From contig NZ_JACJUK010000002.1 of assembly GCF_014235875.1 (NCBI RefSeq), positions 186,001 through 250,000 on the forward strand: a stretch of 64,000 nucleotides of DNA. The letters run 5' to 3'. The translations under genes and the position numbers were made by a program. The notes beneath the pieces are model-generated. The model was given only the letters and a program-made list of their open reading frames with translations. It searched no databases and was not told the origin of the DNA. This DNA comes from Croceivirga lutea (GTDB lineage Bacteria; Bacteroidota; Bacteroidia; Flavobacteriales; Flavobacteriaceae). The number at the start of each line of letters is the position of its first letter. Position 1 is the stretch's first letter. Shown piece by piece: positions 25,908 through 43,300 of this stretch.

Positions 25908-27275
25908 ATGCTTTCTATTTTAAAACAGCATAAACTCCCCTTACTTTTAGTATGTGGGAGTATTTTATTTTACACTGTTTTTGCGTATGATTTTGATAGA
26001 GAAGACTTTATTAAGCTTATAACACTATACGCTGCACTCTTTTTTTTACACCTTAAACTTATTCAATTTCAACAGTGGAATTTTAGTTTTCTATTTGCAA
26101 CAGGAATCCTGTTTAGACTTGTTTTTATTGTAGCTCTTCCAAGCTTATCTCAAGATTTCTATCGGTTCATTTGGGATGGTGAACTAATTACTCAAGGGAT
26201 TAATCCGTATGCATATACCCCTAATCAAATTGTAATTGAAAGCGTACACCTAGGTCAAAACATAGCTATACCAAATCAGGCAGAACTGTACCAAGGAATG
26301 GGTGAACTAAGTGCAAAACATTATAGCAACTACCCTCCTATAAATCAACTTTTATTTGCCATGAGTACTTTCTTAGGGTTTGGTTCAATTTTAGGTAGTG
26401 TTATTTGGATGCGCTTGTTTATAATTATTGCAGATGTAGGCACTGTTCTAATTGGGAGAAAACTATTGAAGGAATTAGAAAAAAAGGAATACCTAATTTT
26501 CTTTTACTTTTTAAACCCACTTGTAATCTTGGAACTAACCGGAAATTTACATTTTGAAGGTATTATGTTTTTCTTATTTATTACAGGATTTTATCTTATC
26601 ACCAAGAACAAGCTACTTTCGGCAGCTCCTATTTACGCGGCTTCCATATTTTTAAAATTAGTTCCATTACTCTTTCTACCTATCTTCTTTAAATATTTAA
26701 AATTTAAAAAAAGTATTCTATTTTACACCATGGTAGTTGGTTGCTGCGCACTGTATTTACTACCGTTTATAAACGAGAATTTGCTTGATAATTACCAAAA
26801 AACCATCGATTTATGGTTTTCAAATTTTGAATTTAATGCAAGTATCTATAACCTCGTAAAGTATGTTTTCGTTACTTTTTTCGAAGCTAAACCTTGGGAG
26901 CTCATCATTACTTATGGCTCTTTAGTCAAAGTAATCTCGGTATTCATAATTCTGTCTCTAGCGTTTATCCCAAAAAACAACTCTCCAAAACAAGTATTAA
27001 CTTCTATTTTAATTGTTTTAACTGCGTACTACTTTTTATCTGCAACCGTTCATCCTTGGTATATAGTTTTTTTGGTGGGCTTAGCTGTTTTTTCAGATTT
27101 TAAATATCCTATTGTCTGGTCTGCAGCTGTAATCCTAAGTTATTTTACGTATTCTCAACCTAACTTTGAAGAAAATCTTTTTCTTATTTCTTTAGAATAT
27201 ATATTGGTTTTTGGGGTTTTGTTTTTCGAAGTTTTTAAAAATCATAACATTATTAATAGTATTCGTAAAAAGTAA
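25908..27275 (+). CDS. GT-C-type polytopic mannosyltransferase
   Basis: This 455-residue protein has about ten to twelve membrane helices. The first large loop has SQDFYRFIWDGELITQGINP, the pattern seen in GT87/DUF2029 and MptA/B-like mannosyltransferases, which use polyprenyl-phosphate-mannose. The loop SAKHYSNYPPINQLLFA is also typical. It is the last gene of the plus-strand redox/glycosyltransferase operon, two bases after the processive transferase gene. The arginine leader promoter begins shortly after its stop. Confidence 0.8.
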   Translation: MLSILKQHKLPLLLVCGSILFYTVFAYDFDREDFIKLITLYAALFFLHLKLIQFQQWNFSFLFATGILFRLVFIVALPSLSQDFYRFIWDGELITQGINPYAYTPNQIVIESVHLGQNIAIPNQAELYQGMGELSAKHYSNYPPINQLLFAMSTFLGFGSILGSVIWMRLFIIIADVGTVLIGRKLLKELEKKEYLIFFYFLNPLVILELTGNLHFEGIMFFLFITGFYLITKNKLLSAAPIYAASIFLKLVPLLFLPIFFKYLKFKKSILFYTMVVGCCALYLLPFINENLLDNYQKTIDLWFSNFEFNASIYNLVKYVFVTFFEAKPWELIITYGSLVKVISVFIILSLAFIPKNNSPKQVLTSILIVLTAYYFLSATVHPWYIVFLVGLAVFSDFKYPIVWSAAVILSYFTYSQPNFEENLFLISLEYILVFGVLFFEVFKNHNIINSIRKK

Positions 27276-27285
27276 TCACAAAATG

Positions 27286-27314
27286 TTGAGCATCTAAGTT
27301 TTTTTATACTTTTA
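27286..27314 (+). promoter_or_regulatory. Promoter of the arginine operon leader
   Basis: TTG at 27286-27288, an 18-base spacer and TACTTTTA at 27307-27314 fit the Bacteroidota consensus with one mismatch in the last position. The leader-peptide ATG is at 27322, so the 5' UTR would be only a few bases. Confidence 0.6.
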
Positions 27315-27321
27315 CCTCATA

Positions 27322-27411
27322 ATGAAAGAACAGAGACACATAGCTATAACTAAAAACGCGAGTATTCCATCTCCCGTTCGTCCGTTCTTTGTGCGCCGCC
27401 GTCGCCCGTAA
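27322..27411 (+). CDS. Arginine-rich leader peptide of the arg operon
   Basis: This is a 29-codon frame with an ATG at 27322 and a TAA at 27409-27411. It starts MKEQRHIAITKN and ends VRPFFVRRRRP. Six of 29 codons are Arg, four of them consecutive (CGC CGC CGT CGC, 27394-27405) directly before Pro-stop. This is the form of a ribosome-stalling attenuation peptide that senses charged tRNA-Arg. It lies alone between the operon promoter and the first arginine biosynthetic gene. The downstream RNA can fold into mutually exclusive hairpins. The codon run and position are seen directly; the regulatory role is inferred. Confidence 0.75.
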   Translation: MKEQRHIAITKNASIPSPVRPFFVRRRRP

Positions 27412-27455
27412 GGGTGCCAATATACTATTGGGATTAGGTGTGTCCATTCCCGCTT
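27403..27455 (+). promoter_or_regulatory. Attenuator hairpins of the arg operon
   Basis: Three stems overlap. Stem 1 is CGCCC-GTAA-GGGTG (27403-27416), which covers the last Arg codon and the stop. Stem 2 is CCAATA-TAC-TATTGG (27417-27431). Stem 3 is GGGA...TCCC with inner GG/CC pairs (27430-27451), followed by GCTTTT. Stems 2 and 3 share 27430-27431 and cannot form together. A ribosome stalled on the Arg codons would block stem 1 and leave stem 2 free to prevent stem 3, the terminator-like one. The T run after stem 3 is short (four), which is the weak point. No other signal is seen up to 27501. Confidence 0.5.
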
Positions 27456-27501
27456 TTCGTAAAAATCTAAATTCATTTTTAATTTAATTTATTCATCAAC
27501 G

Positions 27502-28122
27502 ATGAAAATTGTTGTTGCTAACGCATCGCATTTAAAATATGCACAAATCATAAGCGAGACTATTACAGACTCTGCAAAAGTTCGTGGTACCGGTATTGCC
27601 AAACGTACCCCAGAATATATTGCGCAGCGTCTACGAAATGGTAATGCTATCATCGCTTTAGATGACGATAAATTTGCAGGATTTTGTTACATCGAAGTTT
27701 GGGGCAATAAAAATTTTGTTGCAAACTCAGGTCTAATTGTACATCCTGATTATAGAGGCGAAGGTCTAGCCAGCAAAATAAAACAGCGCATTTTTGAATT
27801 ATCCCGAGAAAAATTTCCGGATGCCAAAATCTTTGGCATTACTACAGGACTTCCGGTAATGAAAATGAATTATGCTTTAGGTTACAAACCTGTAACATTT
27901 TCAGAACTCACTGATGACCCAGATTTTTGGAAAGGCTGTCAAACTTGTAAAAACTTTGACATTCTTACCAGAACAGAACAAAAAATGTGCCTCTGTACTG
28001 GAATGTTATATGACCCAAAAGAAAAAAATAACCATCCAAAAGCTGAAAAAATAAATTCTAAAACTTTTCAGCGATTAAGAAGTATTAAAGAAAGCTTACT
28101 TATAAAAAAGAAAGAAAAATGA
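27502..28122 (+). CDS. GNAT acetyltransferase, probable acylglutamate synthase
   Basis: This is a 206-residue GNAT-fold protein. The acyl-CoA motif is GLIVHPDYRGEGLASKIKQR (77-96), preceded by AIIALDDDKFAGFCYIEVWG and followed by GITTGLPVMKMNYALGYKPV. As first gene of an arginine operon with no argA or argJ, it is the best candidate for making N-acetyl- or N-succinyl-glutamate. The C-terminal part carries CQTC (146-149) and CLC (163-165), a possible metal site unusual for GNAT enzymes. It overlaps argG by four bases. The catalytic role is inferred from position. Confidence 0.75.
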   Translation: MKIVVANASHLKYAQIISETITDSAKVRGTGIAKRTPEYIAQRLRNGNAIIALDDDKFAGFCYIEVWGNKNFVANSGLIVHPDYRGEGLASKIKQRIFELSREKFPDAKIFGITTGLPVMKMNYALGYKPVTFSELTDDPDFWKGCQTCKNFDILTRTEQKMCLCTGMLYDPKEKNNHPKAEKINSKTFQRLRSIKESLLIKKKEK

Positions 28123-29300
28123 AAAAATTAGTATTGGCTTATAGTGGCGGACTAGATACATCCTATTGCGCCATGAACTTATCTAAAGAGCATGGTTTTC
28201 AAGTACACGCGGTAAGCGTTAACACAGGTGGTTTTACACCAGAAGAAATTAAAACCATAGAAGAAAAAGCATTGGCTTTAGGGGCTAGCACCTATACTTC
28301 TATAGATGCCGTACAGAATTTTTATGATAAAGTGGTTAAATACCTCATTTTTGGCAATGTACTTAGAAACAACACCTATCCCCTTTCGGTAAGTGCAGAA
28401 CGTATTGTACAAGCGGTAGAGATTGTAGAACATGCCAAAAAAATTGGGGCCAAATATATTGCTCACGGTAGTACCGGAGCGGGTAACGACCAAGTACGTT
28501 TTGATATGATTTTTCAAACGCTTGCTCCTGAAATTGAAATTATAACTCCTATTAGGGATAACAAACTCGCAAGAGAAGAAGAGATTGCTTATTTACAAGC
28601 CAATGGCGTGGATTATTCTTGGGAAAAAGCTAAATATTCTATCAACAGGGGACTTTGGGGTACATCTGTAGGTGGTGAGGAAACCTTGACCAGTGAAAAA
28701 CCCTTGCCAGACAGTGCTTACCCTAGTCAACTACAAGAAAAAGAACCTACCCAAGTAAGCCTTTCTTTTGAAAAAGGCGAATTGGTAGCGATTAATGGCG
28801 AAAAAGATACGCCCGTAGCCAATATTGAAAAATTAGAAGCTATTGCCAACAAATATGCCATAGGTAGAGACATTCACGTGGGTGATACCATAATAGGAAT
28901 TAAAGGTAGGGTTGGATTTGAAGCGGCCGCACCATTAATTATCTTAAAAGCCCACCATTTGCTAGAGAAGCACACCTTGAGTAAGTGGCAGCAATTTCAA
29001 AAAGAACAACTGGGTAACTTCTATGGTATGTTGTTGCATGAAGGCAACTACCTAGACGAAGTGATGCGCAACATAGAAGCCTTTTTAACCGATACACAGA
29101 AGAACGTCACGGGCGAAGTATTTGTTAGCTTGTACCCTTTCCAATTTAGATTAGACGGAATTAAATCACCAAACGATTTAATGAATGCCTCTTTTGGTAG
29201 CTATGGCGAAATGAACAAAGGTTGGACTGCAGATGACGCCAAAGGCTTTATTAAAATCTTATCCAATCCGGGTAAAATCTCTAATCACGTAAACGGCTAA
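28119..29300 (+). CDS. argG: Argininosuccinate synthase
   Basis: ArgG joins citrulline and aspartate with ATP. The 393-residue protein has the N-terminal ATP-pyrophosphatase loop YSGGLDTSYC (9-18), HGSTGAGNDQVRFD (about 116-129) for citrulline/Asp binding, IRDNKLAREEEIAY and YSINRGLWGTSVGGEE. The length is as usual. It is coupled to the GNAT gene by a four-base overlap and followed by argC after two bases. Confidence 0.97.
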   Translation: MKKLVLAYSGGLDTSYCAMNLSKEHGFQVHAVSVNTGGFTPEEIKTIEEKALALGASTYTSIDAVQNFYDKVVKYLIFGNVLRNNTYPLSVSAERIVQAVEIVEHAKKIGAKYIAHGSTGAGNDQVRFDMIFQTLAPEIEIITPIRDNKLAREEEIAYLQANGVDYSWEKAKYSINRGLWGTSVGGEETLTSEKPLPDSAYPSQLQEKEPTQVSLSFEKGELVAINGEKDTPVANIEKLEAIANKYAIGRDIHVGDTIIGIKGRVGFEAAAPLIILKAHHLLEKHTLSKWQQFQKEQLGNFYGMLLHEGNYLDEVMRNIEAFLTDTQKNVTGEVFVSLYPFQFRLDGIKSPNDLMNASFGSYGEMNKGWTADDAKGFIKILSNPGKISNHVNG

Positions 29301-29302
29301 AT

Positions 29303-30277
29303 ATGGCTAAAATTGGAATAATCGGAGGTTCTGGCTATACAGGAGGCGAGTTGATTCGTCTGCTGCTAAACCATAGCGATATCACTATAGATTTTGTATA
29401 CAGCACTACCAGAGCTGGCAAAAAAATTAGTAGTGCCCATGCCGATTTAATTGGCGCTACCAACCTTACTTTTACTGGGGAAGTTAACACCCATGTAGAT
29501 GTTGTTTTCTTGTGCTTAGGGCATGGAAATTCTAGTAACTTTTTAAAGGAACATAAATTTTCTGAAGAAACACTTTTAATCGACTTGAGTAATGATTTTA
29601 GGCTTCAAGCAGATGCTACATTTCAAGGTAGAACTTATGTTTACGGCTTACCTGAACTGAACAAAGAAGCGATTAAAAAAACAGATGCACTGGCTAATCC
29701 AGGTTGTTTTGCTACCGCTATACAATTAGGGTTATTGCCCTTAGCAAAAGCCGGAATGCTTCAAGATGATATTCATGTAAATGCGGTAACGGGCAGTACG
29801 GGGGCTGGTGTAAAACCAGGGGAAACTACCCATTTTAGCTGGCGAAACAACAATGTGAGTTGGTACAAACCCTTTACACATCAACATTTAGGGGAAATTG
29901 GCGAAAGCTTAAATTCTTTTAGCAACCCTACAGGTAAAATTTATTTCTTACCCAATAGAGGTAATTTTACTAGAGGGATATTGGCTACCACCTATACCAA
30001 ATTCAATGGTAGTGTTGAAGAAGCAAAAAGTCTGTTTACAGATTTCTACAAGGAGGCCAAATTTACCCAAGTGGTAGATGACCCCATTCATTTAAAACAA
30101 GTGGTGAATACCAATAATTGCCATATTCACTTGCACAAACATGATGACATTTTGCTGATAACCTCTGCCATAGACAACCTTTTAAAAGGTGCTTCTGGAC
30201 AAGCCGTACAAAACATGAATTTGATGCTAGGTTTTAAAGAAACCAAAGGATTAAAATTAAAGGCAGGCGTATTTTAA
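29303..30277 (+). CDS. argC: N-acyl-gamma-glutamyl-phosphate reductase
   Basis: ArgC reduces N-acyl-glutamyl phosphate to the semialdehyde with NADPH. The 324-residue protein has the N-terminal dinucleotide fold IIGGSGYTGGELIRLL (5-20) and the active-site Cys in LANPGCFATAIQLGLLPL. TGSTGAGVKPGE and the HQHLGEIGESL His motif follow. It sits in operon order between argG and proC. Confidence 0.96.
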   Translation: MAKIGIIGGSGYTGGELIRLLLNHSDITIDFVYSTTRAGKKISSAHADLIGATNLTFTGEVNTHVDVVFLCLGHGNSSNFLKEHKFSEETLLIDLSNDFRLQADATFQGRTYVYGLPELNKEAIKKTDALANPGCFATAIQLGLLPLAKAGMLQDDIHVNAVTGSTGAGVKPGETTHFSWRNNNVSWYKPFTHQHLGEIGESLNSFSNPTGKIYFLPNRGNFTRGILATTYTKFNGSVEEAKSLFTDFYKEAKFTQVVDDPIHLKQVVNTNNCHIHLHKHDDILLITSAIDNLLKGASGQAVQNMNLMLGFKETKGLKLKAGVF

Positions 30278-30300
30278 AAACCAAACCGTAAAACTTTACC

Positions 30301-31095
30301 ATGAAAATAGCAATTATAGGAACCGGGAACTTAGGCCAATCTATTGCCAATGGCATTCTAAATTCTAATGGTGCAACCAGTATGTACCTTACCAAACGTA
30401 ATCCTGATAAATTAAAGCATTTTGAAGATTACGGTAATGTAACCGTTACGGCTAGCAACGAAGAGGCGGTCACTAATTCAGATATTTTAATTTTTGCCGT
30501 GCAACCAGGTCATTTTGAAGCTATTTTGTATGATATTAAAGACCAACTCACTGAAAAACATGTGGTAATTAGTGTTATAACGGGTTTTTCAATTTCTAGA
30601 ATTGAGTCTATCATTGGTGCAGACAAATACATATTACGTTGTATGCCCAACACCGCTATTTCCGTAGGCAAATCCATGACCTGTATTTGTAGTAATGGGG
30701 TTGGTAAAAAACGAGTGGACTTGGCCAAAGCTATTTTTAATAGAATGGGACATACCTTGGAAATTCCAGAAGAGCAAATGCAAGCGGCAACCGTGATTTG
30801 TGCCAGTGGTATTGCCTTTTGGATGCGTTTAATACGTGCAACCACACAAGGTGCCATACAATTGGGATTCGAATCTAAGGAAGCGCAAGAATTAGCAATG
30901 CATACCTGTAACGGCGCAGCAGCTTTATTAATTGAAACCGGCAACCATCCAGAGCAAGAAATAGACCGTGTAACCACACCAAAAGGTTGTACTATTGAAG
31001 GTTTGAATGAAATGGAACACCAAGGATTGAGCTCTTCCCTAATCCAAGGTATTGTAAGCTCATACAAGAAAATTAGTGACATAAAAAACACCTAG
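30301..31095 (+). CDS. proC: Pyrroline-5-carboxylate reductase
   Basis: ProC makes proline from pyrroline-5-carboxylate. This 264-residue protein has the N-terminal Rossmann motif IIGTGNLGQSIANGIL (4-19), VQPGHFEAIL, LRCMPNTAISVGKSM and the C-terminal family signature VTTPKGCTIEGLNEMEHQG. It lies inside the arginine operon, so proline and arginine synthesis are expressed together. It is followed by a 40-base gap before argD. Confidence 0.94.
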   Translation: MKIAIIGTGNLGQSIANGILNSNGATSMYLTKRNPDKLKHFEDYGNVTVTASNEEAVTNSDILIFAVQPGHFEAILYDIKDQLTEKHVVISVITGFSISRIESIIGADKYILRCMPNTAISVGKSMTCICSNGVGKKRVDLAKAIFNRMGHTLEIPEEQMQAATVICASGIAFWMRLIRATTQGAIQLGFESKEAQELAMHTCNGAAALLIETGNHPEQEIDRVTTPKGCTIEGLNEMEHQGLSSSLIQGIVSSYKKISDIKNT

Positions 31096-31135
31096 ACTTA
31101 GGTTATATAGCCTAATAACTAGAAAAAACAACAGC

Positions 31136-32260
31136 ATGAAATTATTTGATGTTTACCCTTTATATGATGTTACCCCTGTAAGCGCAAAAGGCATTGAGGT
31201 AATTGATGATAAGGGTCAAAAATACTATGATTTCTACGGCGGGCATGCCGTGATTTCCATAGGGCATTCCCACCCACATTATGTTAATATGCTTACCGAC
31301 CAATTGCAACAAATTGGTTTTTATAGCAACTCTATAAAAAATCCATTGCAAGAGGCGTTGGCAGAGAAACTAGGCCAACTCTCTGGCTGTGAAGATTACA
31401 ACTTATTCTTATGTAATTCTGGAGCAGAAGCCAATGAGAATGCTTTAAAAATGGCATCGTTCCATACCGGGAAATCCAAGGTCTTGGCATTTAAAAAAGC
31501 CTTTCATGGGCGTACCTCAGCTGCAGTGGCTACAACGGATAATCCAAAAATAAACGCACCTATAAATCAACAGCAAAAAGTAACTTTTATTGATTTTAAC
31601 GATGTCGAAAACTTAAAAGCAGAACTAGCTTCAGGAGACTATTGCGCGGTTATTTTAGAAGCCATACAAGGGGTTGGTGGTTTGGATGAACCCACAACCG
31701 AATTTTACCAGCTTATTCAAACCGAATGCAAAAACCACGGTGTAGTACTTATTGCAGACGAAGTACAGGCCGGTTTTGGTAGAAGTGGTAAATTCTTTGG
31801 ATTTCAACACCATAATATTAAACCAGATATTATCTCAATTGCCAAAGGTATGGGTAATGGGTTTCCCGTAGGTGGTATCTTAATTCATGAAGATATTAAG
31901 GCTTCTTATGGGTTGTTGGGCACTACTTTTGGTGGTAACCACCTTGCTTGTGCCGCTACCCTGGCGGTTTTAGAAGTTATAGAAAAAGAAGACCTGTTAA
32001 CCAATGCGCAAGCCATGGGTGCCTACTTCACAGCAGAGGCAGCCAAAATTCCGCAAGTAAAAAAGGTAAAAGGGAGAGGGTTAATGTTGGGGCTCGAGTT
32101 TGATTTTGAGGTAGCAGAACTTCGCAAAAAACTCATTTTTAATCAGCATGTATTTACGGGCGGCGCAGCCAATAAACAGGTACTTCGGTTCTTGCCAGCG
32201 TTAACTATTGGCAAAGCAGAAATCGATTTGTTCTTTAACGCTCTAAAAGCGGAATTGTAG
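31136..32260 (+). CDS. argD: N-acylornithine aminotransferase
   Basis: This 374-residue class III PLP aminotransferase has LCNSGAEANENALKMA (about 93-108), KAFHGRTSAAVATTDN, LIADEVQAGFGRSGKFFGFQ (about 204) and SIAKGMGNGFPVGG with the PLP-binding Lys. It converts the N-acyl-glutamate semialdehyde to N-acylornithine. ProB follows after one base. ArgD and succinyl-ornithine transaminases are close relatives, so the acyl group is not resolved by this gene. Confidence 0.93.
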   Translation: MKLFDVYPLYDVTPVSAKGIEVIDDKGQKYYDFYGGHAVISIGHSHPHYVNMLTDQLQQIGFYSNSIKNPLQEALAEKLGQLSGCEDYNLFLCNSGAEANENALKMASFHTGKSKVLAFKKAFHGRTSAAVATTDNPKINAPINQQQKVTFIDFNDVENLKAELASGDYCAVILEAIQGVGGLDEPTTEFYQLIQTECKNHGVVLIADEVQAGFGRSGKFFGFQHHNIKPDIISIAKGMGNGFPVGGILIHEDIKASYGLLGTTFGGNHLACAATLAVLEVIEKEDLLTNAQAMGAYFTAEAAKIPQVKKVKGRGLMLGLEFDFEVAELRKKLIFNQHVFTGGAANKQVLRFLPALTIGKAEIDLFFNALKAEL

Positions 32261-32261
32261 C

Positions 32262-33026
32262 ATGAAAAAGCGCGTTCTCATCAAAATTGGTTCTAACACA
32301 CTGACCAAAGAAACAGACCAGATATCCCGTGGTAAAATAGAGGATATCGGCAGGCAATTGGCGGTATTAAAAGACCAATACGAATTTATCTTGGTCTGCT
32401 CTGGGGCCATTGCAACAGCAAAGCAATTTGTACAATTAGAACACACCGGTAAAGACATTAATGTTAAGCAAGCCTTGGCAGCTATTGGTCAACCCCGTTT
32501 AATGCATATTTTTCAAGAGAATTTTAGAGAACTGGGCTTATTTACATCGCAATGCTTGTTTTCGTATTCGGATTTACGGGATGACGAATCGCGCCAGAAC
32601 ATAAAAAACACCATTGATGTGCTACTACAAAATAACGTAGTACCCATCATTAATGAAAACGACACTGTAGCCACAGAAGAGATTAAATTTGGCGATAATG
32701 ATAAGCTGGCGGCCTACACCGCAGCCTTTTTAGAAGCAGATTTACTTATAATCGCTACCAATACCAATGGCGTATATAGCAAAGCATCTATGGAAAATGG
32801 AACACCAGAAACCATTTTAGAAGTGCATGATTTGCAAGCCATGCAAAAGGAAATTAGCACAGCAAAATCGTCTCACGGAACAGGTGGCATGCAATCAAAA
32901 ATAGAAGCTTCGGCAATAGCACAAAAAGCACATATAGAAACTTGGATAGTGAACGGCTTATTGGATAATTTTATCCTAGATAGTTTTAATGCCAAACAGC
33001 CTTTCACCAAAATAATAGCAACATAA
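32262..33026 (+). CDS. proB: Glutamate 5-kinase (no PUA domain)
   Basis: ProB phosphorylates glutamate at the start of proline synthesis. The 254-residue protein has the amino-acid kinase fold with RVLIKIGSNTLTKE (3-16), VCSGAIATAKQF, VPIINENDTVATEEIKFGDN and GTGGMQSKIEAS. The C-terminal PUA domain found in E. coli ProB (367 residues) is missing, as in several Bacteroidota. ProA, its usual partner, does not follow; argF' begins two bases after the stop. Confidence 0.94.
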   Translation: MKKRVLIKIGSNTLTKETDQISRGKIEDIGRQLAVLKDQYEFILVCSGAIATAKQFVQLEHTGKDINVKQALAAIGQPRLMHIFQENFRELGLFTSQCLFSYSDLRDDESRQNIKNTIDVLLQNNVVPIINENDTVATEEIKFGDNDKLAAYTAAFLEADLLIIATNTNGVYSKASMENGTPETILEVHDLQAMQKEISTAKSSHGTGGMQSKIEASAIAQKAHIETWIVNGLLDNFILDSFNAKQPFTKIIAT

Positions 33027-33028
33027 CA

Positions 33029-33967
33029 ATGAAGCATTACTTACATATCAACGATTTAGACAGTTTACAACAAACGGTACAAGAAGCTATCGAACTAAAA
33101 AAAGAACCCACCCAGTTTAAACAACTAGGTGCTGGCAAAACCATTTGCTTGTTGTTCTTTAACAATAGCCTACGTACCCGTTTAAGCACACAAAAAGCTG
33201 CCATAAATTTAGGGTTAGATACTATTGTTATGAATTTTGGTAGTGAAGGCTGGCAGTTAGAGTTTGAAGAAGGAGCCGTAATGGACCAAGGTAAAGCAGA
33301 ACACGTAAAAGAAGCAGCACAAGTGGTGAGCCAATATGCCGATATTGTAGCGATACGTGCCTTTGCTGGTTTAACCGACAAAGAAGCTGACGAGGCCGAG
33401 TTGGTCTTAAACGCCTTTAAAAAATATGCGAACATTCCCGTAGTAAATATGGAAAGTTCTGTTGGGCACCCCTTACAAGCATTGGCTGATGCCATTACCT
33501 TAGAAGAAAATAAAATTGCCCAAAAACCTAAAGTAGTTTTGTCTTGGGCACCACACCCACGCGCTTTGCCGCATGCGGTTGCCAATAGTTTTGTTGCGAT
33601 GATGAAATTGCAAGATGCCGATTTTGTAATTACCCATCCAGAAGGGTATGAGCTAAACCCGGAAGTAACAAAAGGATGTAAAATTGTGCACGACCAAGAA
33701 GAAGCGCTTAAAAATGCGAAGTTTGTATACGTAAAAAACTGGAGCAATTACCAAGATTACGGTAAAGTAAAAAACACCGATAGCAATTGGATGATGACCA
33801 AAGAAAAATTGGGGAAGGCCAAGTTTATGCACTGTTTGCCAGTACGTAGAAATGTGGTAGTAGAAGATGCTGTTATGGATAGCGACCAAAGCCTATGTAT
33901 GGAACAGGCCAACAATAGAACTTATGCAGCCCAAGTGGTGCTAAAACAACTAATAAAAGACCTGTAA
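33029..33967 (+). CDS. argF': N-acylornithine carbamoyltransferase (ArgF')
   Basis: This 312-residue transcarbamylase belongs to the N-acetyl/N-succinyl-ornithine type rather than the ornithine type. NNSLRTRLSTQKAA (45-58) is the carbamoyl-phosphate site, and SWAPHPRALPHAVANSF and FMHCLPVRRNVVVEDAV are hallmark segments shared with Bacteroides fragilis SOTCase. The specificity residue, Pro90 in B. fragilis and Glu92 in the Xanthomonas acetyl-specific enzyme, is Ala90 here (QGKAEHVKEA). Known E92 to A, S, P or V changes in the Xanthomonas enzyme favour succinylornithine, so succinyl substrate use is likelier. It makes N-acyl-citrulline for argE to release. Confidence 0.9.
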   Translation: MKHYLHINDLDSLQQTVQEAIELKKEPTQFKQLGAGKTICLLFFNNSLRTRLSTQKAAINLGLDTIVMNFGSEGWQLEFEEGAVMDQGKAEHVKEAAQVVSQYADIVAIRAFAGLTDKEADEAELVLNAFKKYANIPVVNMESSVGHPLQALADAITLEENKIAQKPKVVLSWAPHPRALPHAVANSFVAMMKLQDADFVITHPEGYELNPEVTKGCKIVHDQEEALKNAKFVYVKNWSNYQDYGKVKNTDSNWMMTKEKLGKAKFMHCLPVRRNVVVEDAVMDSDQSLCMEQANNRTYAAQVVLKQLIKDL

Positions 33968-33982
33968 GCTGCTACAAATTAA

Positions 33983-34759
33983 ATGGAAGATTTAAGCATA
34001 GTTAAAATTGGTGGTAATATAATTGAGGATAGCGATGCGCTAGACCAGTTTCTTACCCTTTTTGCGCAATTGCCCGGTCATAAGATTCTGGTGCATGGTG
34101 GTGGTAAAAAAGCAACCCAGTTGTTACCCAAATTAGGAATAGAACCAAAAATGGTGAACGGCCGCCGTATTACCGATGCAGCAACTTTGGAAGTGGTTAC
34201 CATGGTTTACGGTGGACTTGTAAATAAAAATGTGGTGGCACAATTGCAGGCTAAAGGTGTAAATGCTATTGGACTAAGTGGTCCGGATGCGAATACCATA
34301 CAGGCACAAAAGCGCCCCGTTACTGAAATTGATTATGGGTTTGCCGGCGATGTTAAAGGTGTTGGTGGAAAAACCATTAGCCAATTGATAAGTATTGGAT
34401 TAACTCCCGTATTTTGTGCCCTAACGCACAACCAAAAAGGACAATTACTCAACACCAACGCAGACACCATTACCTCAGAAGTTGCCATTGGTCTCAGCGA
34501 CTTTTACAACACAACCATCTATTATTGTTTTGAATTGGATGGCGTACTAGAAGACATCAACAGAAAAGATTCTTTAATTAAACATATTGATACAACTACT
34601 TACGATGCCCTGGTAGCAAAAGGCGTTATTGCAGACGGCATGTTGCCTAAGATGCATAATTGTTTTCACGCCCTAAAAAATGGTGTAAAACAAGTTAAAA
34701 TTGGAAATTTAGGAATGTTTCAAACAGCAAACACCAACTATACAACATTGGTTTTATGA
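33983..34759 (+). CDS. argB: N-acylglutamate kinase
   Basis: ArgB phosphorylates N-acylglutamate, the second step of the pathway. The 258-residue amino-acid kinase has VKIGGNIIED (7-16), LVHGGGKKATQLLPKLG (about 36-52), GLSGPDANTIQAQKRP and GMLPKMHNCFHAL near the C-terminus. It lacks the N-terminal helix that makes arginine-inhibited hexamers in some bacteria, so feedback control by arginine may be weak; this would fit control by attenuation. It overlaps argE by four bases. Confidence 0.94.
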   Translation: MEDLSIVKIGGNIIEDSDALDQFLTLFAQLPGHKILVHGGGKKATQLLPKLGIEPKMVNGRRITDAATLEVVTMVYGGLVNKNVVAQLQAKGVNAIGLSGPDANTIQAQKRPVTEIDYGFAGDVKGVGGKTISQLISIGLTPVFCALTHNQKGQLLNTNADTITSEVAIGLSDFYNTTIYYCFELDGVLEDINRKDSLIKHIDTTTYDALVAKGVIADGMLPKMHNCFHALKNGVKQVKIGNLGMFQTANTNYTTLVL

Positions 34760-35823
34760 AGTTAGATAAAAAAGCTTTGGGCACAGAAGCCCTAGAATTA
34801 CTAAAACAATTAATTGCTATTCCTTCTTTTTCTGAAGAAGAAGATGAAACGGCTACATTAATAGACAATTGGTTGCAAGGTCATGGGGTGACAACCAAAA
34901 GACAGTACAATAATATTTATGCTTTTAACAAGTATTATGATGAAAGCAAACCCAATTTATTATTGAATTCCCACCACGATACGGTGAAGCCCAATAAGGC
35001 CTACACCAAAGACCCTTTTAATCCGCATATAGAAGATGGTAAATTGTATGGATTAGGAAGTAATGACGCCGGCGGTGCTTTGTGTTCCTTGTTGGCCACT
35101 TTTGTACATTTTTATGAGCGAGAAGATTTGAGCTATAACATTATCATGAGTGCCACGGCAGAAGAAGAAGATGCTGGCGATAAAAGTATTTCGGCCTTAT
35201 TACCTATTCTTCCAGAGATTGATGTAGCTATTGTAGGTGAGCCAACCCAAATGCAATTGGCCATAGCAGAAAAAGGCTTAGTGGTTTTTGAAGGAACCGT
35301 AGAAGGCACACCTTCGCACGCCGCCCATCCTAACGATAATAATGCCATTTACAATACCATAAAAGTGTTGGAATGGTTTAAAAACTATCAATTTGAAAAG
35401 GTATCCGATGTTTTAGGCCCTGTTAAAATGACGGTTACCCAAATTAACGCGGGCAGCCAACACAATGTAGTACCAGCACAGGTAGATTTGGTGATAGACA
35501 CCCGTGTTAACGATTGTTACACCAATGAGGAAATTAATGAAATGCTACAGCGTGAAGCACCTTGTAAACTAAGACCTAGGTCGTTGAACTTAAGTAGTAG
35601 TTCTATTCCTATTGAGCATCCGTTGGTGCAATCTGGTATTGCTTTAGGTAGGGAAACTTATGGTAGCCCTACACTATCAGACCAAGCAGAACTTAGCTGT
35701 CAATCTTTAAAATTAGGTCCCGGGTATAGTCCAAGAAGTCATTCAGCAGATGAGTTTATCTATGTTGATGAAGTGTACGAAGGGGTACAGCTTTATATTG
35801 ATATTTTAGAGGGATTTTTGTAG
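34756..35823 (+). CDS. argE: N-acyl-citrulline/ornithine deacylase (M20)
   Basis: This 355-residue M20-family metallopeptidase has LLNSHHDTVKP (metal His and Asp, about 72-82), GLGSNDAGGALCSL (bridging Asp), ATAEEEDAGDKS (catalytic Glu and metal Glu), IVGEPTQMQLAIAEKG and SHSADEFIYV (last metal His). In pathways with ArgF' it removes the acyl group from N-acyl-citrulline to give citrulline for ArgG. The last bases run into a flavobacterial intergenic repeat. It is coupled to argB by the four-base overlap. Confidence 0.92.
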   Translation: MKLDKKALGTEALELLKQLIAIPSFSEEEDETATLIDNWLQGHGVTTKRQYNNIYAFNKYYDESKPNLLLNSHHDTVKPNKAYTKDPFNPHIEDGKLYGLGSNDAGGALCSLLATFVHFYEREDLSYNIIMSATAEEEDAGDKSISALLPILPEIDVAIVGEPTQMQLAIAEKGLVVFEGTVEGTPSHAAHPNDNNAIYNTIKVLEWFKNYQFEKVSDVLGPVKMTVTQINAGSQHNVVPAQVDLVIDTRVNDCYTNEEINEMLQREAPCKLRPRSLNLSSSSIPIEHPLVQSGIALGRETYGSPTLSDQAELSCQSLKLGPGYSPRSHSADEFIYVDEVYEGVQLYIDILEGFL

Positions 35824-35843
35824 CCCCCTAGCCCCCAAAGGGG
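35824..35843. repeat. Flavobacterial intergenic repeat, CCCC-AAA-GGGG type
   Basis: Immediately after the argE stop, CCCCTAGCCCCCAAAGGGG gives a C-rich duplication and a short hairpin (CCCC 33-36, GGGG 40-43 in the 35800s). From memory, similar sequences recur in intergenic regions of Flavobacteriia. There is no T run, so a terminator is not certain. Confidence 0.5.
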
Positions 35844-35886
35844 AATAGTTAAGTGACGAGGAAAATAATTTGAATTAAATAATATC

Positions 35887-35909
35887 AGGTCGAGCGCAGT
35901 CGAGACCTT
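35887..35909. repeat. Flavobacterial palindromic repeat, GGTCGAGCGCAGTCGAGACC type
   Basis: AGGTCGAGCGCAGTCGAGAC with its CT end forms a bulged hairpin (AGGTC/GACCT outer, GA/TC inner). From memory, the same motif is dispersed in many marine Flavobacteriaceae genomes. It sits in the only long gap inside the arg operon, 44 bases before argH. Confidence 0.55.
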
Positions 35910-35952
35910 AGAATAAGATTCCTGCATTTGCAGAAACTGTAAAAAAAGAACT

Positions 35953-37233
35953 ATGAAACTCTGGGACAAAGGATTCAGCACTGATAAAAAAATAGATACA
36001 TTCACTGTTGGCAACGACAGGGAACTCGATTTACTATTGGCCAAGTATGATGTTATCGCCTCCACAGCGCATGCAAAAATGTTGGCCAAAGTAGGATTAA
36101 TTTCTGATGATGAAGCGAAGCTTTTGGTAAAAGAATTGGCTGCCATTGGTAAATCTATTGAAAAAGGAGACTTTACCATTGAAGATGATTTTGAGGATAT
36201 GCACTCTAAAATTGAGTACATACTCACCGAAAAATTGGGAGATGTAGGTAAAAAAATTCATACCGCACGCTCTAGAAATGACCAAGTTCTAGTGGCTATG
36301 CAATTGTATTTAAAGGCAGAACTCACAGAAATCAAAAGTCAGACCAAGCAGTTGTTCAATTTACTGATGAAACTGGCCGAGAAACATCAAAAAACGCTTT
36401 TACCCGGTTATACGCATTTGCAGATTGCCATGCCTTCTTCTTTTGGATTGTGGTTTTCCGCCTATGCAGAGAGTTTAATAGACGACTTGTACTTTGTGGA
36501 TGCGGCATATAAAATTACAGACCAAAATCCGTTAGGTAGCGCAGCTGGTTATGGCAGTTCTTTCCCAATAGATAGAAGTTTTACAACGGCAGAATTGGAT
36601 TTTGCTACACAAAAATACAACGTAGTTGCGGCGCAAATGGGCCGTGGAAAGGTAGAAAAGGCAACGGCTTTTGGTATCTCTAGCCTAGGAGCCACCTTGT
36701 CTAAAATGGCTATGGATATTACCTTGTATATGAGCCAGAATTTTAATTTTATTTCCTTTCCAAACGAGCTCACCACCGGTAGTAGCATAATGCCTCATAA
36801 AAAGAATCCGGATGTATTTGAGTTGATACGTGCCAAGTGTAATAAAGTACAAGCTACGCCCAATCAGTTAATACTAATTATGAATAATTTACCAAGTGGG
36901 TATCATAGAGATTTGCAATTGGTGAAAGAAGTAATAGTACCGGCTATACAGGACATGAAAGCTTGTTTAGAAATGTTACACTTTAGTTTGAAAGAAATAA
37001 AAGTGAATGCAGCTATTCTAAGTGACACCAAATACGATTACCTCTTTAGCGTAGATACGTTGAATGAAATGGTTAAAAACGGTATGCCGTTTAGAGATGC
37101 TTACAAAACCATGGGTAAGGCCATAGAAAATGGCAATTTTAAACCCAAAAGAGATATTAAACACACCCATGAAGGTAGTTTGGGAAATCTGTGTTTAGAA
37201 GAAATTAAAAAGAAGATGGAAAAAATTAGTTGA
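35953..37233 (+). CDS. argH: Argininosuccinate lyase
   Basis: ArgH splits argininosuccinate to arginine and fumarate. The 426-residue protein has KLWDKGFSTDKKIDTFTVGN at the start, FEDMHSKIEYIL, HTARSRNDQVLVAM (about 98-111) and the superfamily signature GSSIMPHKKNPDVFELIRAK. The family is usually nearer 460 residues; the difference lies at the C-terminus. It is the last gene of the arginine operon, separated from argE by 129 bases holding two repeats, so its expression may partly uncouple. Confidence 0.95.
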   Translation: MKLWDKGFSTDKKIDTFTVGNDRELDLLLAKYDVIASTAHAKMLAKVGLISDDEAKLLVKELAAIGKSIEKGDFTIEDDFEDMHSKIEYILTEKLGDVGKKIHTARSRNDQVLVAMQLYLKAELTEIKSQTKQLFNLLMKLAEKHQKTLLPGYTHLQIAMPSSFGLWFSAYAESLIDDLYFVDAAYKITDQNPLGSAAGYGSSFPIDRSFTTAELDFATQKYNVVAAQMGRGKVEKATAFGISSLGATLSKMAMDITLYMSQNFNFISFPNELTTGSSIMPHKKNPDVFELIRAKCNKVQATPNQLILIMNNLPSGYHRDLQLVKEVIVPAIQDMKACLEMLHFSLKEIKVNAAILSDTKYDYLFSVDTLNEMVKNGMPFRDAYKTMGKAIENGNFKPKRDIKHTHEGSLGNLCLEEIKKKMEKIS

Positions 37234-37345: not shown

Positions 37346-40300
37346 ATGAGTAAGACCCACTTTTTATTCATTTTTCTACTTATTGGATATTCAGCATTTG
37401 GCCAATCTTTTAGATCTACATGGAATACCACTAATATAGAATCTGGCTCTTCCGCCAACAACCAGATTACTATACCTACCAACCCTGCCTATACTTACAA
37501 CTATACAGTTTATTGGGGAGATGGTAATTCTGATACTGGTGTTACTGGCAACATAACCCACACGTATGCAACCCCTGGTACGTACACCATAGAAATTAGT
37601 GACACTTTCCCTGCTATTTATTTTAATGACGAAAACGCCAGCGATAAACTAAAAATCTTAGAAATATTGGCTTGGGGAAGTCAACAATGGCAAACCATGG
37701 AAAATGCCTTTTATGGTTGCGAAAATCTCAATTTCGATGCTATTGATGCGCCAGATTTATCCCAAGTTACAACGCTGCAAAACATGTTTAGGGGCTGTGA
37801 AGCCTTTAATGGTATTGTTAATAATTGGGATGTTAGTACCATAACTAATATATCAGGCCTCTTTCAAGAATGTATCGTTTTTAACAGACCATTGGATTTA
37901 TGGAATACAGCCAATATCACAGATATGTCTTACACCTTCCACAGGGCAAGAGCATTCAATGAACCCTTAGACAATTGGAATGTAGCATCTGTTACAGATA
38001 TGGAGTATTTTTTATCTGAAGCTTCTTCTTTTAACCAAAACATCAATAATTGGAACATATCAAATCTCACCAATTTAATTGGAACATTTAGATACACAAG
38101 CCGATATAATCAGCCCTTAGATAATTGGAATGTGACCAATATCACAGATCTTACCGGGACTTTTCAGGGCTCTGCATTCAATAGACCAATAAACAATTGG
38201 AATGTAAGTAATGTAGTTTCCATGGAAGCCACCTTTAGAGAATCACAATTCAACCAGCCCATAAACTTATGGAATGTGAGTAATGTAACCAATATGTCTC
38301 AAATGTTTCATAGAAACCGAACATTTGACCAACCTATAAACAATTGGAATGTAAGTAATGTTACAGATATGTCTGGGATGTTTGATGGTTGGATTTGGGG
38401 AGCAGTCTTTAACCAACCATTGGATAATTGGGATGTGAGTAATGTAACAGACATGGAATACATGTTTAGAGATAACTCTGCCTTTAATCAAGACATTGGC
38501 ATGTGGGATGTTAGTGGGGTAACCAACATGCGGGGCATGTTTGAAGAAAACCCAGCCTTTAATCAAAACATTGACAACTGGGACGTTAGCAATGTCACTA
38601 TAATGAGTTATATGTTTAATGAAGCTACTGCATTTAATCAGCCATTAAACTCTTGGAACATCAGCAATGTTACTGCAATTGAAGGAATGTTTTTTAGGGC
38701 TACTGCATTTAATCAACCTTTAGGTAATTGGGATGTATCTAGTGTGGATGGCCTTAGAGATATGTTCCGGTCAGCAACTAATTTCAATCAAGATATTAGT
38801 TCATGGAACGTTTCAAATGTTACACGGTTTTCAGCAATGTTTTTAAATGCTGGTTCATTTAATCAAAATCTTGCTAATTGGAATGTTGCAAACGCAACGC
38901 AAATGAGCAATATGCTTTCTAATAGTAGCTTATCTCAAGAAAATTATGATAACACCCTAATTGGTTGGGCGGGCCAAACAGTACAAAATGGGGTAAGTCT
39001 AGGTGCTAACGGACTACAGTATTGTGATGCACTAAATCAAAGACAAGGATTGATAGATACAAACGGTTGGACTATTACTGGGGACAGTGTGAACTGTTCT
39101 TATGTGCTCTGTACAGAAATTACCATGCCAGCGGCAGGAGACAACATGACACCTGCCAATAGTGATATTAGATGGAATCCTGCTCCAAATGCGGACGGGT
39201 ACAGAGTTACCCTAGAAATTGAACGCGGTGGCTCTAGAAACTATGCTACAATTAATGGGAACGTTGCTAATAATTATGATGTCGGCAATACCATTGGGTT
39301 AGATTTTACAAATGAATTTCTACCAGGCGATACCGTTTATGTAACGGTTGTACCTTATAATACCGAAGGTCCTGCAACAGGTTGCCAAGAACTCTCCTTT
39401 ACAGTTGTTGAAAGCTGGGTGAACAGTCCAGATGCCTTTAAATTAACATATGATACTAGCATAACAGAATCGGGGTCAACGCCTACCAATCAGTTAAAAA
39501 TTGAAGCAAACACCGGTTATCCAGATTATCTAACATATAATTATTCTATTGATTGGGGAGATGGGCAATATAACAACAATGTTACTGGTGAAATTATACA
39601 TACCTACTTAAACCCCGGTGTTTATACGGTATCAATTATAGGAGATTTTCCAGCTCCTTATCATTGGGTAAGTAATTCTGACCATATCAAACTTATATCT
39701 ATAGACCAATGGGGCACACAAGTTTGGCAATCTATGAATTACGGATTTTATGGTTGTGCAAATATGGAATACAACGCAACGGATGTACCTAATCTTTCTC
39801 AAGTCGAGTTAGCCTCTAACATGTTTTCTGGCTGTACCTTATTTAATGGTGCAATAGACAATTGGGATGTAAGCAATATTACCAACATGCAGAGCATGTT
39901 TATTTCTGCACGTAGTTTTAACCAACCTCTAAACAGTTGGGATACAAGCAATGTTACCAATATGTACGGAATGTTTGGGGCTGCTCAATTATTTAACCAA
40001 CCTTTAAACAATTGGGATGTAAGCCAAGTGACGAACATGAATTTTATGTTCGCCCGAACGGAGGATTTCAACCAAGATTTAAGTAGTTGGGACACTGGTA
40101 ATGTTACAGATATGGGACGTATGTTTCAAAGTTCAGAGGCTTTTGACCAACCTTTAAACAGCTGGAATGTTAGTCAAGTAACCAATATGTCAGAAATGTT
40201 CCAAAGAGCAGAGGTATTTAACCAACCCTTAGATAACTGGAATACAGCTAATGTAACGGACATGTCTGCCATGTTCTATGATGCAGAATTGTTTAACCAG

Positions 40301-43300
40301 AACATCAATAGTTGGGATGTATCATCAGTAACAGATATGAGCCAATTGTTTTATGCTGCAATAGCATTTAACCAACCCTTGAATAACTGGAATGTTAGTA
40401 CCGTTACCAATATGACCTCTATGTTTTCTAGAGCTGAAGCTTTTGATCAAAATATTGATAGCTGGAACGTAACCAATGTAATTAACATGAATAGTATGTT
40501 CAATTACGCCATCTCTTACAATCAACCCATGAACAGTTGGGACGTAAACTCTGTTGTAAACATGAACGGCATGTTTAGGGGTGCCCAAGTATTTAACCAA
40601 CCATTAAATAATTGGGACGTTAGTGCTGTTGCCAATATGAGCAATATGTTTGAACATGCCGAAGTATTTAATCAACCCATAAATACATGGAATGTAAGTT
40701 CGGTAACGCTAATGCCATCTATGTTCGAATCGGCTTTTACTTTTAACCAACCTTTAAACAGTTGGAACGTTGGTGTAGTTACCAATTTTGATTCTATGTT
40801 CAAAGAAGCAGAAGCGTTTGACCAACCCCTTAATAATTGGGATACAGGTGAGGTTCAAAATATGGCAGAAATGTTCTATGGAGCTACTGTATTCAATCAA
40901 GATATTGCTAGTTGGAATACCTCTTTCGTAACCACTATGCAAGAGATGTTTAGAGAAGCAAGTGCCTTTGACCAGTCACTTGATATCTGGAACGTTGCCT
41001 CTGTAACTACTATGCGAGGTATGTTTCAGGATGCTACAAGCTTCAATAGCTCAATTAACAACTGGAACGTTCGTGGTGTTACCACTATGCAAGACATGTT
41101 TAATGGTGCTAATAGTTATAACCAAAGTTTAAACAACTGGCGCGTAAATGGAGTGACCAATATGGAAGGGATGTTCTACGGTGCTAGTGCGCTTGACCAA
41201 TCTTTTGATCAATGGTTAATTGGTACCGTTTCTATGCGCAATATGTTCCATGATGCTACGGCATTTAATCAATATTTAGGCGATTGGAATATAGAAAATG
41301 TAACCAATATGCAAGGCATGTTGGATGATACTGCCCTTTCAAGAGAAAATTATGACAATACCTTAATAGCTTGGTCAGAACAGACATTAACACCAGGTAT
41401 TAACCTTGGGGCAAATACGCTACCCTATTGTGATGCAGTTGAAGAACGCCAATCTATGATAGACAATTTTGGATGGACTTTTACAGGTGATGTTCTCGAT
41501 TGTCCTATTCCCGAATGCACCCAATTGGTTGCACCGCTAAATGGAGCAACGGACGTTCCTGTGAATACGAATATTACATGGGAAGCGGTTCAGTTTGCGC
41601 GAGAATACAAATTATTTGTTGGCACCTCACCCGGAGGCACAGATATTTTAAATAATGAAGTGGTAGTGAATAATACCTCATTTGAATTTGCTGCAGACTT
41701 TAACCCAGATGTTACGGTTTATGTTACCATTATCCCATCCAATGAAAATGGCGATGCGGTTGGGCCTTGTACTGAAGAAAGTTTTACAGTAACAAATAAT
41801 CCACCAACTGTACCAGATTGTACCAATCTGACCTTACCGTTAAACAATGCTACCGATATTTCTTTTGATACGGATTTAAACTGGAACGCGGTAAGTAATG
41901 CAGATGGATATAGAATCAATGTAGGAACAACCTCTGGAGGCACGGATTTAGTTAATAATGAAGATGTAGGTAATGTAACCGAATATGATTTTTCTACGGA
42001 TTTACCGGAAAACACTTTAGTTTATGTAACCATTATCCCTTACAACGAAGTTGGGCCTGCTACAGCTTGTACAGAAGAGTCTTTTAGAACTGAGTTTATT
42101 CCAGTTCCCCCTTCATGTACTACAATTGCTAGCCCAATAAACGGTGCTGTAGATGTAGCTATTGATACAGATTTAAGCTGGAATGCCGTTGCCGACGCTA
42201 CCGGATATTTGGTAAGCGTAGGTACTACTTCTGGTGGAATAGAAGTTGTTAATAATATAGATGTAGGCAATGTTACCACTTATTCTTTTACGGCTGACCT
42301 TCAAGAAAATAGGATGCATTACGTTCAAATTATTCCCTACAATGCTGTTGGCGATGCCTCTGGCTGTTCAGAAGAAATATTCACAACCGGAGCAGGAAGT
42401 TTATCAAATCCACCCAATTGCACCACAATTAACAATCCATTAAATGCAACAACAGATGTGGTCATAAATTCCGATATCAGCTGGAATGCTGTAGCCAATA
42501 CAGATGGGTATTACCTTACTGTAGGCACCACTTCTGGCGGAACCGATATTTTGAATGCAGAGGACGTGGGTAATGTTGTTACCTATGACTTGCCTGCAGA
42601 TTTACCTGAAAACACGGAGATATTCGTAACTATTGTTCCTTATAATTCTTTCGGAAGCGCTACCGGATGTAACGAAGAATCCTTTACCACCGAAACCCTG
42701 CCAACTGTACCCAGCTGTACTAGTTTAAGTTCACCGCTTAATGCAGCTACCGACGTTTCAATTGCTACCGATTTAAGTTGGAATGTTGTGGCCAATGCTG
42801 ATGGCTATTACTTAACCGTGGGTACCACTTCAGGGGGAAATGATATTTTGGATAACGAGGATGTCACAGGCTCTACTTTTGACCTGCCCAACAATCTACC
42901 TGAAAATACCGTAATATTCGTATCTATTGTTCCTTACAATGCTGTAGGAGATGCTTCCGGATGTATAAAAGAATCCTTTACAACGGAAACTCTAGCTACA
43001 ATACCTAGTTGTACTAGTTTAAGTTCACCGCTTAATGCAGCTACGGACGTTTCAATCTCAACTAATCTAAGTTGGGACGCCGTAGGTAATGCTGATGGTT
43101 ATTATTTGACCGTTGGTACCACTTCAGGAGGAAATGATATTTTGGATAATGAGGATGTCACTGGCACTGCTTTTGATTTGCCAGCTGATTTACCAGAGAA
43201 CACACAGATATTCCTAACCGTTTTACCGTACAATGGGGTTGGTTCAGCTACAGGTTGTACCGAGGAATCCTTTACAACGGAAACTCTGGCCACAATACCT

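Follow-up and report, generated by a model that had tools for sequence, protein, structure and literature searches.

Control of bacterial arginine operons is usually credited to repression by ArgR. Among described systems in which a short leader frame senses an amino acid, the speF leader of Salmonella carries orf34, whose consecutive Arg codons are reported to sense arginine, with Rho and RNase G involved (PMC6386406), and the uORFC-8-2 motif is described as standing before cysS in Rhodobacterales (PMC8632094). In Flavobacterium psychrophilum, clues to leader-peptide attenuation precede amino-acid operons, and where it discusses them that survey names pheA, hisG, and others, but not an arginine operon (PMC9723704). 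Short frames resembling leader peptides lie in long 5' UTRs of Bacteroides thetaiotaomicron, with arginine unmentioned in the main text (PMC7366714). A literature search by title and the opening of the abstract, supplements aside, found no report of a leader peptide for an arginine operon in Bacteroidetes.

Here we describe such a leader in a window of 64,000 nt from Croceivirga lutea. Judged by sequence comparison, the arginine leader element is real, is widespread in one family, and is undescribed as far as our literature searches show. A sequence-only reading of the window had proposed an Arg-codon attenuator that would be new or little described; the novelty stands, in that no arginine-operon leader peptide from Bacteroidetes was found in the literature searched, but the trp/his mechanism that came with it is unsupported. 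The parts of the leader are as follows, with H1 and H2 corresponding to stems 1 and 3 of that reading.

27285 to 27288, + strand: possible -33 element GTTG, a weak candidate, 18 nt before the -7 box
27307 to 27314, + strand: -7 promoter box TACTTTTA, of the TAnnTTT[GA] type, ending 7 nt before the leader ATG
27322 to 27411, + strand: leader frame of 29 codons from the ATG at 27322 to the TAA at 27411, reading MKEQRHIAITKNASIPSPVRPFFVRRRRP then stop and ending VRRRRP
27394 to 27405, + strand: run of four Arg codons, CGC CGC CGT CGC, the last of which is the 5' end of H1
27403 to 27416, + strand: hairpin H1, CGCCC-GUAA-GGGUG, with the stop codon within its loop
27417 to 27429, + strand: spacer, holding most of the window's stem 2
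27430 to 27451, + strand: hairpin H2, with a covarying stem, a bulged A, GG-CC closing pairs, and the loop UGUGU
27452 to 27501, + strand: tail to the first gene, with no conserved U-tract

Behind the leader are ten codirectional genes (27502 to 37233, + strand), nine of which have HMM matches to arginine or proline pathway families in the window; the first gene has only a general GNAT match. The frame with four Arg codons in a row (27322 to 27411) between a promoter and a ten-gene arginine/proline operon is thus as the sequence-only reading described it.

27502 to 28122, + strand: GNAT acetyltransferase (PF00583/PF13508), possibly an argA-like first enzyme, a role suggested by its position
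28119 to 29300, + strand: argG, argininosuccinate synthase (TIGR00032, above cut-off)
29303 to 30277, + strand: argC (TIGR01850, above cut-off)
30301 to 31095, + strand: proC (TIGR00112, above cut-off)
31136 to 32260, + strand: argD-like class III aminotransferase (PF00202; TIGR00707 is the best match but under its cut-off)
32262 to 33026, + strand: proB, glutamate 5-kinase (TIGR01027, above cut-off)
33029 to 33967, + strand: argF-type N-acylornithine carbamoyltransferase (NF003384, above cut-off)
33983 to 34759, + strand: argB (TIGR00761, above cut-off)
34756 to 35823, + strand: argE-like M20 deacylase (PF01546; TIGR01910 under its cut-off)
35953 to 37233, + strand: argH (TIGR00838, above cut-off)

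We note that the GNAT protein (27502 to 28122) has a C-terminal Cys pattern, CQTC..CLC, which resembles a metal site, and that proB and proC are present but proA is absent among the ten genes (27502 to 37233). Immediately past the operon, positions 37346 to 44773 code for a 2,475-aa protein built of many similar repeats.

Two sets of relatives were compared. The close set comprises the 80 best first-gene loci out of 514, with titles that are nearly all Flavobacteriaceae; the wide set takes one genome per genus, and the first gene is present in 98 of 149 family genomes, giving 97 upstream stretches besides that of the window. Counts of Arg codons, spacing, folding, and stem 2 refer to 154 sequences (80 close and 74 wide), all of which have the exact H1/H2 pattern, and leave out the 23 of the 97 wide sequences that lack it. 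Eight of the 97, lacking the apical H2 pattern (seven that are negative for the R1 model described below, and L212), are left out of the U-tract and tandem-frame counts. An ATG frame ending RRP is found just upstream of the first gene in 79 of the 80 close loci; the 80th (L007) has 124 nt of upstream DNA, too little to judge, and is omitted from the Arg-codon, spacing, folding, stem-2, and promoter-box counts.

The frame is strongly enriched for arginine. In the 12 codons before the CGC that belongs to H1, there are on average 2.90 (close) and 3.14 (wide) in-frame Arg codons, compared with 0.33 to 0.76 in the other two frames of the same stretch (0.35 to 0.54 in the wide set alone) and 0.82 to 0.95 in shuffles. 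No in-frame stop occurs in this stretch in any of the 154 sequences, whereas 25 and 43 sequences have one in the other frames. Leader Arg codons are mostly CGT or CGC, while the commonest Arg codon in 14 ORFs of the window is AGA (9.6 per 1,000; CGC, 2.4), and the synonymous codons vary among relatives (CGT, CGC, AGG, CGA, AGA), so it is arginine itself that is kept. A comparison among Flavobacteriaceae had been suggested with the initial reading, and across much of the family the Arg-codon run is indeed kept with varying flanks. An Arg-codon leader frame before this operon is, on these comparisons, more than chance, and conservation of the frame points to a translated leader whose run of codons specifies the end product. 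It stands before an operon for the amino acid it would sense, as seen from the HMM matches in the window and, in 90 of the 97 relatives, from its place before that first gene.

A TAnnTTT[GA] box lies 6 to 9 nt before the in-frame leader ATG in 62 of the 80 close sequences; the rate in random 20-nt windows is 1.1%. In the window's genome such a box also precedes the ATGs of the trp and his leaders, by 5 and 7 nt. With the box 6 to 9 nt before the ATG, the mRNA should start at or just before it, and the leader is presumably close to leaderless, given the usual promoter geometry. In F. psychrophilum only 5.5% of the mRNAs examined are reported to be leaderless (PMC9723704).

Stems 1 (27403 to 27416) and 3 (27430 to 27451), which had been proposed from the window alone, proved to be conserved hairpins. 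The folding energy of the single window leader is unremarkable (z -0.17), and the evidence is comparative. A model of the hairpin element, R1, was built from an alignment (A1) of 39 of 81 close sequences, picked by eye for variety. In a 91-row alignment (A2), which is fitted to R1 and so is biased toward the structure, and which omits the seven of 97 stretches without an R1 match (L200, L203, L258, L260, L264, L265, and L266), H1 stem pairs are kept in 95.0% of cells, with both-side changes at two of five pairs, and H2 has both-side changes at all six stem pairs and at one of two apical pairs. Together the two hairpins have 95 cells with both-side changes, versus 22.5 after shuffling and no more than 24 after sliding. 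The unfitted close alignment gives 15 such cells versus 5.3 shuffled and none slid, but changed pairs (2 versus 1.7) and pair types (4 versus 3.7) are not above shuffles; these two of the five covariation measures fail because most pairs are invariant among close relatives.

H1 is short, with five pairs of which one is G-U, and it varies less than H2, although L189 and L202 have an alternative stem, CGCAC/GUGCG. The stop codon lies 3' of H1 in L223, L230, L234, L245, and others (e.g., ..RRPLGV*), so what is kept is the hairpin rather than a stop in its loop. H2 has one U-U mismatch in the window; its loop, UGNGU in most relatives, and its closing pairs show little variation, in contrast to its changing stem sequence. 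The distance from the first C of H1 to the apical G of H2 is 32 to 36 nt in all 154 sequences, and 33 or 34 nt in 131 of them. H2 is 43 to 52 nt from the first gene in close relatives; L221, L240, L248, and L254 have extra sequence there, partly hairpin-like by eye, so this distance seems not to be strictly required.

In the window's own genome R1 finds a single copy at E ≤ 10, before the arginine operon (E 2.3e-21). One-per-genus searches of the family give a match in 89 of 149 genomes at E ≤ 3.7e-4, 88 of which are among the 98 with the first gene, leaving 10 of those 98 without a match at that threshold; at E ≤ 0.01, R1 is found in 90 of the 97 upstream stretches. Across the order, 14 of 246 genomes match at E ≤ 0.001, all from the same family, although the large genus g2, which also belongs to this family, has no match at that threshold in its 18 listed members. 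Across the class, 32 of 198 match at E ≤ 0.1, but only the window's genome (G000) and G134 fall below 1e-3, and weak matches outside the family were taken as chance. We note that G281 carries the element (L169, about 1480 to 1560) before a different ORF of 194 aa, and that the usual first gene has no relative in that genome at E ≤ 1e-20. Rfam covariance models, including Bacteroid-trp, have no match in 27250 to 27520 of the window at E ≤ 10, nor, at E ≤ 0.1, in any of the 20 upstream stretches searched among the 97 from relatives. H2 was also considered as a widespread motif and rejected: AGGTGNGTCC occurs 10 times in the genome, the arginine copy with six flanking stem pairs and the other nine with one to four. 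Separately, AGGTGAGTCC occurs five times on the minus strand of G000:C16:49281-50838, at spacings of 258 nt or triple that distance; with just one to four flanking stem pairs, these copies are not H2.

ArgR repression has the same target pathway as the arginine leader, but a search limited to the ArgR C-terminal domain (PF02863) detected it in none of the 149 Flavobacteriaceae genomes, while 8 of 14 control genomes were positive, Bacteroides included. The locus is accordingly not assigned to an ArgR-type regulon, and the arginine leader apparently works without the usual arginine repressor. A family without detected ArgR carries instead an Arg-codon leader and a conserved two-hairpin RNA.

How the leader might act was first read as classic trp/his attenuation, with stem 2 as the antiterminator and H2 as a weak intrinsic terminator. 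The Arg run, the promoter, and the order of leader and operon fit such a scheme, and the window has a 6-bp stem 2 (27417 to 27431) that overlaps H2, is contained in the minimum-energy fold in place of H2, and is predicted to be the stronger without a ribosome (probability 0.77, versus 0.21 for H2); TTTT follows H2. With a ribosome on the Arg codons in a masking model, these values become 0.19 and 0.69, and with a ribosome at the stop codon H2 reaches 0.91. A stalled ribosome is thus predicted to favor H2, the wrong sign for trp-type antitermination, and since stems 1 and 2 do not overlap, stalling on the Arg codons does not free stem 2. The window departs from the mean over the 154 sequences, where H2 has a probability of 0.60 to 0.75 whether the ribosome is absent, on the Arg codons, or at the stop. 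Few relatives have a stem of 5 bp or more that extends into H2 (7 of 80 in the close set, 19 of 74 in the wide set), and no recurrent alternative pairing linking H1 to H2 is predicted over the 154 folds. The mutual exclusion of stems 2 and 3 is therefore a fair prediction for the window but is not conserved, and no antiterminator-terminator pair was found beyond this wrong-signed competition in the window. Base pairing between the Arg codons and GGUG in the H2 loop was also rejected; it occurs in the window's minimum-energy fold but does not recur over the 154 sequences, and the facing bases do not covary, as judged by eye in the alignments. No terminator-like site is present at 27200 to 27700 in the window. 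The paucity of T after stem 3, only four and admitted at the outset as a weak point, is telling, as most relatives have fewer: the first 8 nt past H2 hold 0 to 2 T in 66 of 81 close sequences and 0 to 3 in 67 of 89 wide ones. The same genome supplies the positive comparison for an intrinsic terminator with a U-tract. Its trp leader, a Bacteroid-trp RNA (66.9 bits, above cut-off), reads MKLRIENNWWWNNLRRTS, with a 10-bp hairpin at its end followed by AATTTTTT; its his leader reads MTKYHVHHHTFTIAQAR and has a strong terminal hairpin followed by TTTTTTT, such that the T runs number six and seven (L267, G000:C19:38402-38516, and L268, minus strand). Crude scans of the ilvD and homoserine dehydrogenase loci revealed no clear leader. 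With no recurrent exclusive stems, stem 2 rare and not overlapping stem 1, and no U-tract after H2, the trp/his reading fails; the arginine element is, judging from these comparisons, not of that type, and classic attenuation is an unlikely account of it.

Two other explanations also have to be weighed against control by ribosome position. TnaC and the fungal arginine attenuator peptide are precedents for nascent-peptide arrest, and a C-terminal RRRP could stall the ribosome at Pro-stop in response to free arginine; the RRP end in 79 of 80 close loci, with the stop right after Pro in most sequences read, would suit this. Pro-stop is dispensable, however, with relatives that end ..RRPLGV*, ..RRTSVRV*, ..RRTFVRA*, or ..RRLVRV* and keep H1, so RRP seems mostly to reflect the 5' arm of H1. 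The rest of the peptide varies widely, no conserved Pro-stop is found, and arrest by the peptide is very improbable. It is somewhat easier, though still hard, to believe that the two hairpins form an RNA that binds a ligand or protein, as a riboswitch would or via the UGNGU loop, with the frame serving only to open H1. Little variation in the loop and closing pairs of H2 while its stem changes, together with the constant H1-H2 spacing, speaks for this, but the RNA is small and, outside H1, Arg codons are conserved for no visible RNA reason. We regard it as probable that an arginine-sensing leader peptide controls the operon by ribosome position, without a terminator of the trp/his type.

A second leader frame is often present. 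Among the 89 wide sequences, 34 have an ATG frame upstream of the element with at least three Arg in its last eight codons, against none in a reverse-strand control, and 33 of these end 161 to 180 nt before the H2 loop; the other, in L171, lies 251 nt before it and is probably chance. Carriers include L193, L197, L205, L207, L211, L213, L235, L237, L241, L244, L247, L259, and others, with an upstream frame such as MKNLKNKIRCTVPGFPVRFRRRY. In 29 of the 33, the frame that is open through H1 starts 117 to 123 nt before the H2 loop, with GTG (13), TTG (12), or ATG (4). The same start-codon test at other 7-nt offsets gives 0 to 5 of 33, except for 17 of 33 at 60 to 54 nt; many of these carry an ATG immediately in front of the Arg codons (MRRxFPRRP), which may be another start. 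Such tandem leaders would be a natural double sensor.

The leader very probably senses arginine and raises the expression of arginine-making genes in shortage. That its frame senses Arg-tRNA is highly likely from the conservation of the frame and of the Arg run, and the overlap of frame and hairpin, the covariation, and the constant spacing make it likely that H1 is a ribosome-dependent switch with H2 as its partner. When arginine is plentiful, the ribosome would pass quickly, terminate inside H1, and leave, so that H1 could fold and, together with H2, lower expression of the operon. When charged Arg-tRNA is scarce, a ribosome on the Arg codons would hold H1 open and the operon would be read. 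H1 alone may not separate these states, since ribosomes on the last Arg codons and at the stop codon cover nearly the same nucleotides. As to the output, we tentatively favor a premature, non-intrinsic end of transcription, most plausibly Rho-dependent or pause-linked; mRNA decay and an effect on translation of the first gene are both doubtful, and a U-poor intrinsic terminator is rather unlikely. In its fullest form, which we consider evenly balanced between right and wrong, the proposal is of a family-wide RNA switch replacing ArgR, in which the ribosome toggles H1, H1 acts at a constant distance with H2, whose UGNGU loop is near-invariant, to end transcription or let it continue with no intrinsic terminator, and tandem Arg leaders feed the same operon in more than one third of the genera sampled.

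Several features are shared with described leaders. Bacteroid-trp RNAs (RF01692; PMC2864571) and trp/his attenuators, as described, likewise have codons for the regulated amino acid and a biosynthesis operon downstream, and in the window's genome, where a Bacteroid-trp RNA precedes the trp genes, the trp and his leaders also have a promoter box 5 to 7 nt before the leader ATG. These two leaders finish in an intrinsic terminator and a T run, however, whereas the arginine element has no such terminator and shows no competition between its two conserved hairpins, which points to a different control of the operon by a stalled ribosome. The uORFC-8-2 motif resembles the arginine element in that codons for the amino acid it senses lie within the first of its two prominent stems but, compared by description only, it concerns cysteine, a tRNA synthetase gene, and another class of bacteria (PMC8632094). 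The rbfL leader of Staphylococcus aureus also uses a short Arg-codon frame to sense arginine limitation, but it is described as acting on the next gene, a biofilm regulator, by masking its ribosome site and as lowering its expression in starvation (PMC13009471). In the speF leader, orf34 similarly has a hairpin at its stop codon and a second hairpin just downstream, and the authors report having found no Rho-independent terminator; by the same description it differs in its 34-codon frame, its 516-nt leader with long-range structures, and its polyamine gene (PMC6386406). By this analysis the speF leader would be the nearest tested precedent, and a similar Rho-dependent or pause-linked output is our best guess for the arginine leader, if a cautious one.
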